Assembly: GCA_947629255.1 (NCBI GenBank) | Contig: CANRDF010000011.1 | Span: 1-38,367, forward strand | From: an uncultured Bacilli bacterium | Lineage (GTDB): Bacteria > Bacillota_I > Bacilli_A > RF39 > UBA660 | Direction: 5' to 3' | DNA length: 38,367 bases | Part shown: one piece after another, positions 28,251-38,367 of the stretch | Layout of the letters: every line of letters begins with the position of its first letter | How positions within the stretch are numbered: the stretch's first letter is position 1 | Position numbers and translations under genes: made by a program | Notes under the pieces: model-generated | What the model was told of the DNA's origin: nothing | Databases searched by the model: none | What the model saw: only the letters and a program-made list of their open reading frames with translations

Positions 28251-29567
28251 TTATGGATTTAAACGATTTGGGCCTCTAAATAAGAATTGGGTTTCTTTCA
28301 CAGATGGAATCCCTAATAATAACATGGTGAGTCGATCGACTCCAATTGCAAAGCCACCATGTGGAGGACAACCATATTTAAAGAATTCTAAATAGAATTT
28401 AACATCGTCTTTTAATCCTTTTTCTTCCGCATTTTTCACAATTTCTTCATAACGATGCTCTCTTTGAGCTCCGGTTGTAATTTCTACACCTTTCCAAATT
28501 AAGTCATAACCTTGTAAAATACCATCTTTTCGCATATGATAAAAGGCTCTTTTCTCAGCAGGATAATCGGTAATGAAAATAAATTCATTTCCATATTTTT
28601 CCATTGATAATCTACCAAGTAATTTCTCTGCTTCGGTTGTCAAATCTACTTGTTCTTCTTCAGAAATGCTATAACCATAGTTTTCTTTAATTTCTTTGTA
28701 TGCTTCTTTTAAAGAAAGTTTTGGAAATGGCAATTTTGGAACAGTAATTTCCACTCCAAATAATTCTTTTATTTTTTCACCATAATTATCTTTCAAGTTT
28801 CTTAAAGCATACTCTAGCATTTCACTTTCTAAAGTCATGACATCATCAAAAGAATCAATATAACTAAACTCGACATCAAAGCTTGTAAACTCCGTTGCAT
28901 GTTTATTAGTATTTGAGTTTTCTGCACGGAAGCAAGGGCCTACTTCAAAAACTTTACTCATGCCACTTGCCATGGCCATTTGTTTATAAAACTGAGGACT
29001 TTGGGCTAAGTAAGCATCGCCATCAAAGTAATCAACATGGAAAACTTCAGAACCACTTTCACTTGCAGTTCCAATAAGTTTTGGGGTATGAATCTCTGTA
29101 AACTCATGATTATATAAGTATTCTCTTAAATATTTCACAAGTGCACTTTGGATTTGAAACTGAGCCATAACCCTATCATTACGCATATCAATAAAACGAT
29201 AATCTAGTCTTGTATCTAAAGTTGTAGTACTTAAGTCTTTAAATGAAAATGGTAACTCAGGTACACTGGTACTAGTGACTTCTACTTCACTTAAAAGAAG
29301 TTCACAACCATTTAGTTTTACTTTTTCATTTTCTGATAAAATTCCTCTTACTTTTACTGTACTTTCTAATGGAAGATTCTCAAACACTTCTAAGAATGGT
29401 TTATTTTTTTCTTCACTCTTTTCAATTGTCACTTGCACCTTTCCAGTAGAATCTCTAAGAATTACAAACATCACCCATTGTAAGTTTCTGATGCTATCGA
29501 CAAACCCACTGAAAGAGATTTCACTTCCTAAATAACTTTTTAAATCTTTGGCATATACTTTTTCCAT
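28251..29567 (-). CDS. aspS: Aspartyl-tRNA synthetase, archaeal/eukaryotic type (possible Asp/Asn-tRNA ligase)
   Basis: 438 aa, no bacterial GAD insertion; FRAENSNTNKHATEFTSFDVEFSYID; GFAIGVDRLTMLLLGI; C-term RGPNRLNP. Confidence 0.85.
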   Translation of the reverse strand: MEKVYAKDLKSYLGSEISFSGFVDSIRNLQWVMFVILRDSTGKVQVTIEKSEEKNKPFLEVFENLPLESTVKVRGILSENEKVKLNGCELLLSEVEVTSTSVPELPFSFKDLSTTTLDTRLDYRFIDMRNDRVMAQFQIQSALVKYLREYLYNHEFTEIHTPKLIGTASESGSEVFHVDYFDGDAYLAQSPQFYKQMAMASGMSKVFEVGPCFRAENSNTNKHATEFTSFDVEFSYIDSFDDVMTLESEMLEYALRNLKDNYGEKIKELFGVEITVPKLPFPKLSLKEAYKEIKENYGYSISEEEQVDLTTEAEKLLGRLSMEKYGNEFIFITDYPAEKRAFYHMRKDGILQGYDLIWKGVEITTGAQREHRYEEIVKNAEEKGLKDDVKFYLEFFKYGCPPHGGFAIGVDRLTMLLLGIPSVKETQFLFRGPNRLNP

Positions 29568-29589: not shown

Positions 29590-29792
29590 AAAAAGGTTCT
29601 AAATTTAAGGACGACTGGAAAGCCGCGGTACCACCTTAATTCATAGAACCTATGCACTTTTTCTTTTAACGCAGAAATGCGATTATTTTGCCTTGGTGTC
29701 TTTCCTTATTTCTTGTTCTTTGCTTTCACCTAACTCAAAGTCTCTTTTTCAACCAGAAAATAAGTACTATTCCAATCCATAATTTCTTTACG
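29590..29792 (-). promoter_or_regulatory. T-box leader upstream of aspS
   Basis: Minus-strand T-box sequence AAGGTGGTACCGCGG...CGTCCTT; terminator GGTTCTA...TAGAACCTTTTT; AGTA and GAC specifier-loop elements. Confidence 0.9.
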
Positions 29793-35827: not shown

Positions 35828-38221
35828 TCAAATTTCTGATGCGTACTCTAATAATCTCATAAACATGGAAATAAATTTAGGATCTAATCCATTCTTCTTT
35901 AACTTACGAATAGCAATTCTTTTCTTATTCATTTCCATATCACTAAAGATAATGTTAGCAATCATCTCTTTTAAAGTTGTTTTAATTGCTAAATCACTAA
36001 TAATGGAATCAATATCTTCATGAATAAATCTTACAGCATCTATTTCAATATCTTTTCCTTTACAATTAATGGATAACTGACTTGTTGTACTTACATGTTT
36101 GACTTCGACGACAAAGTCTGCATCATCAACATAACTATTTGAAGTATAAACTTCTTTATCTAAGTAAACAACTACTTCATCAGCTTTTCTTGTATTTCTA
36201 AATCTGATACGATAATCTCTAAACTCAGGTATAATTCCACTTTTTCCTTCTGTTGGTCTAATAATTACGGTAAAGTTATTTTGCAAATAATTATAATCAA
36301 TTGCAGAAGTAATGTAATATCCTTTTTCATGTAAACGAGTCACCCCATCATCTTCATATAAATTATAAATATTACTTTTACCTGGGAATATGTGAATTTC
36401 CATACTCTTTGGGGCATCTGTTACATTTCGATTTTCTTCTAAGTCAGCTAAAGGAATAATAGAACCTGATTTTGCAAATACGGGATAATCTTCATCTTTA
36501 TAGAATGTTACATATCGTTTGTCTCCAGGAAACTTTTTCCCAGTTTTAAAATCATACCAAGTTCCTGCAGGTAAGTAAACACGATGGACGGTTCGATTCA
36601 TTAGTACATCTTTTGGAGAAGTAATTGGGGATACTAATAACTCGGAACCAAAAAGATATTCATTCTTATGATCTGGTTCATCATATAAAGCTGGATTATT
36701 ATAATAAATAGGTTGTATTAATGGAAGTCCTGTCTTATGATATTTATATGCTTCTGTATAAAGATATGGAATAAAGCGATGTCTTAAATTCATATAGTAT
36801 TTGACAATCTCTAAAGTTTTAACATCCCATTTCCATGGTTCTCTTTTATAGTATTTTCCCCCTTTACTTGCTAAACGAAATATTGGACTAAATGTTCCGA
36901 GTTCCACATAACGAACGTAAAGATCAGAGTCTTCCATACCGCCTAGATATCCCCCAATATCATGACTCCACCAAGTAAGTCCTTTATTAGAAGCCATCGA
37001 ATTAAAGTATGGTAATATTTTTAAAGTACTCCATGAGACAAGAGTATTCCCGCTGTAAAGAACAGGATACCTATGACTTGCAAGTAAACTATTTTTTGCA
37101 AGAACTAAACCTCTTTTTTCATCTGATTTTTTATAGTTTTCAAAATGATACCTTGTTAAAGCTCGAGGTGTATAAACATCTTTTGGATTATTATAATCAA
37201 GCCAAAAGAAATCAACACCCTTTTGTTCCAAAGGATTAATTAAATAATGAAAATAACAAGTAAGTAAAAACTTATCAAAAATATTAAATGGTATCGTTCT
37301 TTTATCTGTTAATCCTAAAGATCTTGCAATAATCTCATATCCATCTTCATGAGGCATAATACCTTCACTAGGATTGATTAAAAGACCAAGTTTTACACCT
37401 CTTTCATGTAAGTATTTGACAAAATAATCTGGATCACTAAATAAATTACGATTAAAAGTAAATCCTGTTTTATATTTCGATAAATCTCTTCCATCTTTTA
37501 AATGCCAAAATTCATCAAGTAATAAAACTGATACAGGTATCTCATGTTTATTAAAGTTTTGTAATAAATCATCAATATCATTAAAGTTATAAATTTCACT
37601 TTTATTCCACCATACTCCAAGAGCATATCGAGGAATTAAAGCAGGATATCCAGTCAATTCAAAATAATCTTTTAAACACAATCCAAAATCTCTTCGATAC
37701 ATAAAAACATAAGTATCAATTCTAGGAATTGTTGGGGGAATTAAAAAACCATCTTGATTGACAATCATCGATTTACTATCATCAATAGATACAAAACCAT
37801 CAACAGAATATAATCCCTTTTGATAATCAGGTTTATCTAAGTTAATCCCTAATCCAGATGTTTTAAAATTACGTACTTCTTTATTTTTCATTTGCCAAGT
37901 TTTATCTGTATTTAATAAATAAATTTCAATATTTAAAGATTCAAATGGTTTTTCTTTTTGATATTTTAACATAAAGTAATCTGTTGTTATTTCTAAGTTT
38001 TTATCATCTTGATTGACTTTAAACTGAGGTACAGGAAAATTACGATTTTGAACTTGTTCTGTTAAATCATCAAAAAACATTCCATCTTTATTATATTCGA
38101 GTCTTACAAGTCTTGGTGTAAGAACTGTAATACGATAAGTAGCCCCTTGAAAGATAGCTTCAGGTTTACTTTTCGCATTATTATAATCTGCTTTAAAATG
38201 TACATCTAATCCCGTATTCAT
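35828..38221 (-). CDS. Glycoside hydrolase family 31 protein
   Basis: LGVWWNKSEIYN, VSVLLLDEFWHLKDG, GVDFFWLDYNNPKD, WWSHDIGGYLGG, SPIFRLASKGG, YLFGSELLVSPI. Confidence 0.9.
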   Translation of the reverse strand: MNTGLDVHFKADYNNAKSKPEAIFQGATYRITVLTPRLVRLEYNKDGMFFDDLTEQVQNRNFPVPQFKVNQDDKNLEITTDYFMLKYQKEKPFESLNIEIYLLNTDKTWQMKNKEVRNFKTSGLGINLDKPDYQKGLYSVDGFVSIDDSKSMIVNQDGFLIPPTIPRIDTYVFMYRRDFGLCLKDYFELTGYPALIPRYALGVWWNKSEIYNFNDIDDLLQNFNKHEIPVSVLLLDEFWHLKDGRDLSKYKTGFTFNRNLFSDPDYFVKYLHERGVKLGLLINPSEGIMPHEDGYEIIARSLGLTDKRTIPFNIFDKFLLTCYFHYLINPLEQKGVDFFWLDYNNPKDVYTPRALTRYHFENYKKSDEKRGLVLAKNSLLASHRYPVLYSGNTLVSWSTLKILPYFNSMASNKGLTWWSHDIGGYLGGMEDSDLYVRYVELGTFSPIFRLASKGGKYYKREPWKWDVKTLEIVKYYMNLRHRFIPYLYTEAYKYHKTGLPLIQPIYYNNPALYDEPDHKNEYLFGSELLVSPITSPKDVLMNRTVHRVYLPAGTWYDFKTGKKFPGDKRYVTFYKDEDYPVFAKSGSIIPLADLEENRNVTDAPKSMEIHIFPGKSNIYNLYEDDGVTRLHEKGYYITSAIDYNYLQNNFTVIIRPTEGKSGIIPEFRDYRIRFRNTRKADEVVVYLDKEVYTSNSYVDDADFVVEVKHVSTTSQLSINCKGKDIEIDAVRFIHEDIDSIISDLAIKTTLKEMIANIIFSDMEMNKKRIAIRKLKKNGLDPKFISMFMRLLEYASEI

Positions 38222-38248: not shown

Positions 38249-38272
38249 ACAAAGAAGACGATTGGTTATAAC
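38249..38272 (-). terminator. Terminator-like stem-loop upstream of GH31 gene
   Basis: Minus strand AAGACGGTTATAACCAATCGTCTTCTTT. Confidence 0.45.
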
Positions 38273-38312
38273 CGTCTTTCATACATATTTATTTTTCAAT
38301 TGTTGATAACTC

Positions 38313-38367
38313 ACCGGGGAGCCGGGACGAACATCCGCCCGTCCAACGGCTCATGACTACCCCGCCG
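38313..38367 (-). ncRNA. 3' part of a GC-rich structured ncRNA, truncated by the window edge
   Basis: Nested stems CGGGG/CCCCG, AGCCG/CGGCT and GGACG/CGTCC in a GC-rich block inside AT-rich DNA; strand assumed from the downstream terminator-like hairpin. Confidence 0.5.

Follow-up and report, generated by a model that had tools for sequence, protein, structure and literature searches.

A bulged two-part hairpin, probably a variant of the DGR target-site type, at a contig end from uncultured gut Bacilli

Introduction

What does a short GC-rich block at the very end of an AT-rich contig encode? The window, meaning the whole stretch of DNA that was analysed (38,367 nucleotides, contig CANRDF010000011.1 of an uncultured Bacilli bacterium), closes with such a block, which an earlier sequence-only reading had taken for part of a structured noncoding RNA, with raiA-motif RNA as a candidate family and a chimeric contig end as the alternative. 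The element is described here as the target-site hairpin of a diversity-generating retroelement (DGR) in a variant form, with a bulged two-part stem and a position further from the variable repeat (VR). To our knowledge, experimental work on the DGR hairpin comes from one phage system; the present case, backed by covariation, belongs to chromosomal DGRs of gut Bacilli that have several targets, and its architecture and spacing differ from the published form.

In Bordetella phage BPP-1, the inverted repeat that lies 3' of the VR folds, as DNA, into a hairpin or cruciform of which the structure, not the sequence, is needed (Guo et al. 2011, PMC3240598), and deletion of the stem-loop severely impairs activity (PMC12875486). 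The published hairpin has a GC-rich stem of 7-10 bp and a 4-nt GRNA loop, and lies 4-34 bp from the VR end in eight phage-related DGRs, a distance called flexible and hence descriptive rather than defining (PMC3240598). Conservation of the hairpin on bacterial chromosomes is cited as unpublished data in the same work (PMC3240598). PMC10743442 and PMC6642488 contain nothing on the DGR hairpin as a nucleic-acid structure.

Fold and strand of the element

The GC content of positions 38313-38367 is 71%, compared with 29% in the preceding 100 nt, and none of the window's 55-nt stretches starting before 38200 exceeds 62%, which bears out the GC-rich block reported earlier. All paired arms of the sequence-only reading were likewise found at exactly the positions it gave (CGGGG 38315-38319/CCCCG 38360-38364, AGCCG 38320-38324/CGGCT 38347-38351 and GGACG 38325-38329/CGTCC 38340-38344), and its AA bulge was placed at 38345-38346. 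In correction of that reading, the structure is assigned to the minus strand, which folds with -30.1 kcal/mol (plus strand: -21.5). The z-score of the minus-strand fold is -2.0, and 9 of 200 shuffled sequences folded equally well; as this is only modestly unusual, and thermodynamic z-scores by themselves are too weak for identification, fold stability is weak evidence on its own and the comparison with other loci carries the case.

Read on the minus strand, the hairpin consists of an outer stem (GAGCCG/CGGCTC), a 2-nt TT bulge on the 5' side and an inner stem (GGACG/CGTCC) that is extended by G.U, G.U and C-G pairs and closed by the apical loop GGAU. It therefore combines an apical stem of 7-8 bp, G.U pairs included, with an extra outer stem, and it starts 5 nt past a stop codon. 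The features of this end of the window, with the evidence for each, are as follows:

38360-38367, minus strand: last complete codons GCG GGG and a partial codon of a DGR target gene running off the contig (in-frame identity with the orthologue end ...SPFQLTAG* in L120/G019:C32)
38357-38359, minus strand: stop codon TAG of the target gene (end of the open frame; matches the orthologue)
38319-38352, minus strand: two-part hairpin (fold, covariance model, pair counts, own versus swapped arms)
38301-38309, minus strand: DnaA-box-like motif TTATCAACA, 3' of the hairpin (motif common to four lineages)
38255-38278, minus strand: terminator-like hairpin AAGACGGTTATAACCAATCGTCTT, between the target gene and the GH31 gene (identical in the sister genome)
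35828-38221, minus strand: glycoside hydrolase family 31 (GH31) gene, downstream of the target gene, which fixes the synteny (Pfam PF01055, PF21365 and PF17137; orthologue 97% identical)

The terminator-like hairpin on the minus strand had been noticed before and is present, with its coordinates corrected from 38249-38272.

The gene beyond the contig end

The same 68 nt occur with zero changes in a sister MAG (G019, CANPXO010000032.1, uncultured gut Bacilli, isolate Lapin-004 bin27). At the sister locus, the target gene and its stop codon are followed by these identical 68 nt, then by the terminator-like hairpin also seen in the window, and then by the same GH31 gene (97%). This agreement in sequence and gene order between independent assemblies refutes a chimeric contig end, which was accordingly rejected. 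The target gene of the sister is a surface protein ending in a DGR VR, and this VR, in the orthologue of the window's gene, differs from the sister's template repeat (TR) at 19 of 28 adenines and at 3 of 68 other bases. Given the identical 3' end and the synteny, we infer that the window's own gene carries a VR as well, with the repeat situated beyond the contig end. The element itself belongs almost certainly to a DGR target gene.

The 68 nt also recur in the window's own genome (G000:C2:2151-2218, 97% identity), where they follow the stop codon of a gene for a 911-aa protein whose C-terminus reads ...YGVLPALYLSFSVSISGGTGTSSLPFQLTAG. The contig probably ends where it does because the 3' end of the target gene is a repeat present elsewhere in the genome. 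More distant GH31 orthologues are without such a target gene upstream, for which reason its arrival at this position was probably recent.

Conservation, covariation and association with target genes

A covariance model was built from nine hairpin copies and used to search 37 genomes of the genus. It returned 21 matches at E<=0.0011, and all 21 stand at stop codons of VR genes, although in a few of them, the window's copy included, the locus is cut by a contig end and only the tail of the gene is visible. Among the 17 distinct sequences, 97% of cells pair, both sides change in 6 of 9 pairs, and the covariation score is 0.558 (0.188 when shuffled and at most 0.132 in slid versions); the alignment behind these values was fitted to the structure of the model and so leans towards it. 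MAFFT misaligned two divergent hairpins, and the covariance-model alignment and arms split by hand were used instead. The outer stems differ in 14 of 15 examples, with Watson-Crick pairing at 94% for own arms and 46% for swapped arms; as splitting by hand favours perfect pairing, the swapped-arm control weighs more than the 94%. The element is thus genuinely structured and evolutionarily conserved, with compensatory changes in its stems, and to this extent the sequence-only reading is supported. The Rfam and covariation comparisons that it had proposed gave different outcomes: the stems covary, and Rfam covariance models gave no match for the element, raiA-motif RNA included, either at the gathering score or at E<=1, the one match within the window being a distant T-box.

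Association with target genes was also assessed family-wide. Relatives of the reverse transcriptase (RT) were present in 102 of 291 genomes sampled from the family, and about twenty of the loci examined had clean, adenine-only TR/VR pairs. A two-part, high-scoring hairpin follows the stop codon in 12 of 23 VR genes with TR/VR pairs, against 5 of 156 other ORF ends at the same loci (Fisher P 4e-9). The distance from the VR end to the hairpin start is roughly 75-110 bp. The G.U pairs in the apical stem are conserved; the apical loops read GGAT (window), GAAA (G024), GGTT, GTAA and GATT, some are of 3 or 5 nt, and many have a terminal T. The motif GGCGNNNGTC by itself was not specific. Where more than 500 bp separate TR and VR, it is the VR that the GC-rich hairpin accompanies and no comparable one precedes the TR, and a part in the template RNA was rejected on this ground.

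Two side observations concern repeats at such loci. Tandem TR arrays lie beside DGR reverse transcriptases of the family, two in G280 and about five in G177 (L085 2200-3500, L083 2920-3300). Two near-identical bulged hairpins stand about 150 bp apart (L083 789 and 946; L085 115 and 262), and only the first is at a target-gene stop.

DGRs of the window's own genome

The window's own genome contains a complete DGR (RT, Avd, TR and VR) on contig C47 (G000:C47), where the end of a target gene, a hairpin, the TR, an Avd-like ORF and the RT follow one another. The RT matched RVT_1 with E 3e-16; the Avd matched bAvd PF22296 above the cut-off (E 5e-13) and NCBIfam DivGenRetAVD below its cut-off (E 1e-16). 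Over 70 nt, TR and VR show 16 adenine mismatches and 0 others, and the hairpin after the stop of the C47 target gene is homologous to that of the window. The genome holds two reverse transcriptases and about a dozen further places like the variable region of the 911-aa protein. Near-identical hairpin copies stand behind several target genes and a decayed copy behind G000:C92 (decayed copies also occur in G024 and G025); the hairpin is missing from 11 of about 15 VR genes. Because so many lack one, the hairpin would not be strictly needed if the VR genes without it are still diversified. The occurrence of targets with and without a hairpin in one genome would make its effect on diversification readable from natural sequence data.

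A second, different DGR lies on G000:C89 (L022). It has its own Avd (above the NCBIfam cut-off) and an RT, and behind its target-like gene stands an 11-bp hairpin, at the base of which TTATCCACA is found. On G000:C2 (L003 1990-2125, minus strand), a TR without an RT nearby is situated between a target gene and mraZ-rsmH-ftsL; its 5' end is truncated, a Shine-Dalgarno-like AAAGGGGG precedes it, and it is readable as a 32-aa ORF. Most VRs of the genome fit the TR of the sister slightly better than this one.

Comparison with known systems

As in BPP-1 and related phage DGRs (PMC3240598), a GC-rich inverted repeat is found 3' of the VR, near or after the stop of the target gene; pairing is kept while the stem sequence turns over, and an apical stem of about 7 bp carries a 4-nt loop with an initial G. 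Unlike in BPP-1, an additional outer stem of 5-6 bp lies below a bulge of 1-2 nt on the 5' side, the apical stem contains one or two G.U pairs, and many targets within one genome lack the hairpin. The loops follow G-N-N-A/T rather than GRNA, to which GAAA (G024) conforms fully and GGAT, GGTT, GATT and GTAA in part. With about 75-110 bp to the VR end, outside the 4-34 bp of the phage set, the hairpin was filed as a variant and not as a plain member. It shares its side of the target repeat with the BPP-1 stem-loop (SL) reconstituted in E. coli (PMC12875486), and differs from it in coming from a chromosomal multi-target DGR of gut Bacilli and in being known from sequence. Group IIC introns, whose targets include terminator-like stem-loops (discussed in PMC3240598), also show retroelement targeting beside a stem-loop; no intron is present here, and information would be replaced, not inserted.

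Proposed role and alternatives

On the analogy with BPP-1, the element is quite probably the 3' target-site hairpin of a minus-strand DGR target gene and acts in retrohoming as it does there; that it promotes retrohoming is, by the same analogy, likely. The DGR reverse transcriptase together with Avd would copy the template RNA into cDNA mutated at adenines. The hairpin, folded as DNA into a hairpin or cruciform in one strand or in both, would keep the target locally open, and the cDNA would pair with the upstream VR and replace it. In the present genome, the C47 RT may act in trans on the window's gene. The function, the strand on which it is exerted, the binding partner and this action in trans are all carried over by analogy, and are to be set beside the observed position, association, structure and covariation. 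A point against a retrohoming role is the spacing of roughly 75-110 bp, given that longer spacers reduce function in BPP-1 (PMC3240598); another is that many loops have T at the end where GRNA has A. The apical G.U pairs speak for the sense strand, in the form of RNA or single-stranded DNA, and a pure DNA-cruciform role needs none.

More speculatively, the bulged two-part hairpin with its conserved apical GGC-GNNN-GUC could be a recognition element of a distinct kind, specific to one strand, which the DGR complex binds as RNA or ssDNA. It would mark selected targets and be carried along when target genes are duplicated, so that a single RT acting in trans would diversify marked genes more often than those of the same genome that lack the mark. 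We hold this more specific proposal to be doubtful.

It is unlikely that the hairpin works at the level of the target-gene mRNA, by forming a 3'-end structure that stabilises the transcript, ends transcription or separates the mRNA from the template RNA. Its start a few nt past the stop codon would suit such a role, yet a comparable hairpin is found at so few of the control ORF ends, and in the window a separate terminator-like hairpin follows. The conserved apical G.U pairs and the stronger fold of the sense-strand RNA (-30.1 versus -21.5 for the antisense) point towards RNA, while the G-initial apical loop resembles that of DGR hairpins. A T run is present about 9 nt past the stem in G024 but absent from the window's copy and most others, and an intrinsic terminator was rejected for this reason.

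That the hairpin is a passenger, copied along with duplicated target genes and with no present role, is very improbable: the near-identical copies behind several target genes and the decayed ones in G000:C92, G024 and G025 are in keeping with it, and the stems have nevertheless stayed paired across genera while many changes arose on both sides, which needs selection and largely refutes it. As for the readings that the GC-rich island in an AT-rich genome had suggested, a structured noncoding RNA standing by itself (raiA-like or new) and a chimeric end, these can practically be dismissed, since Rfam gives no match at E<=1, every strong relative is attached to a DGR target gene at its stop codon, and the independent assembly has identical sequence and synteny.

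Further observations

The target-site hairpin adjoins a DnaA-box-like motif, TTATYNACA, in four lineages (0.0065 expected per 45-nt stretch, for a motif picked after being seen). The sites are 38301-38309 of the window (minus strand), L021 302-310, positions 3' of the hairpin in L030 and L031, and L022 at about 2261-2269. The T-box leader of the window (29604-29788, minus strand; Rfam RF00230, E 6e-23) precedes a gene at 28251-29567 for an aminoacyl-tRNA synthetase, which looks like an asparaginyl/aspartyl-tRNA synthetase.
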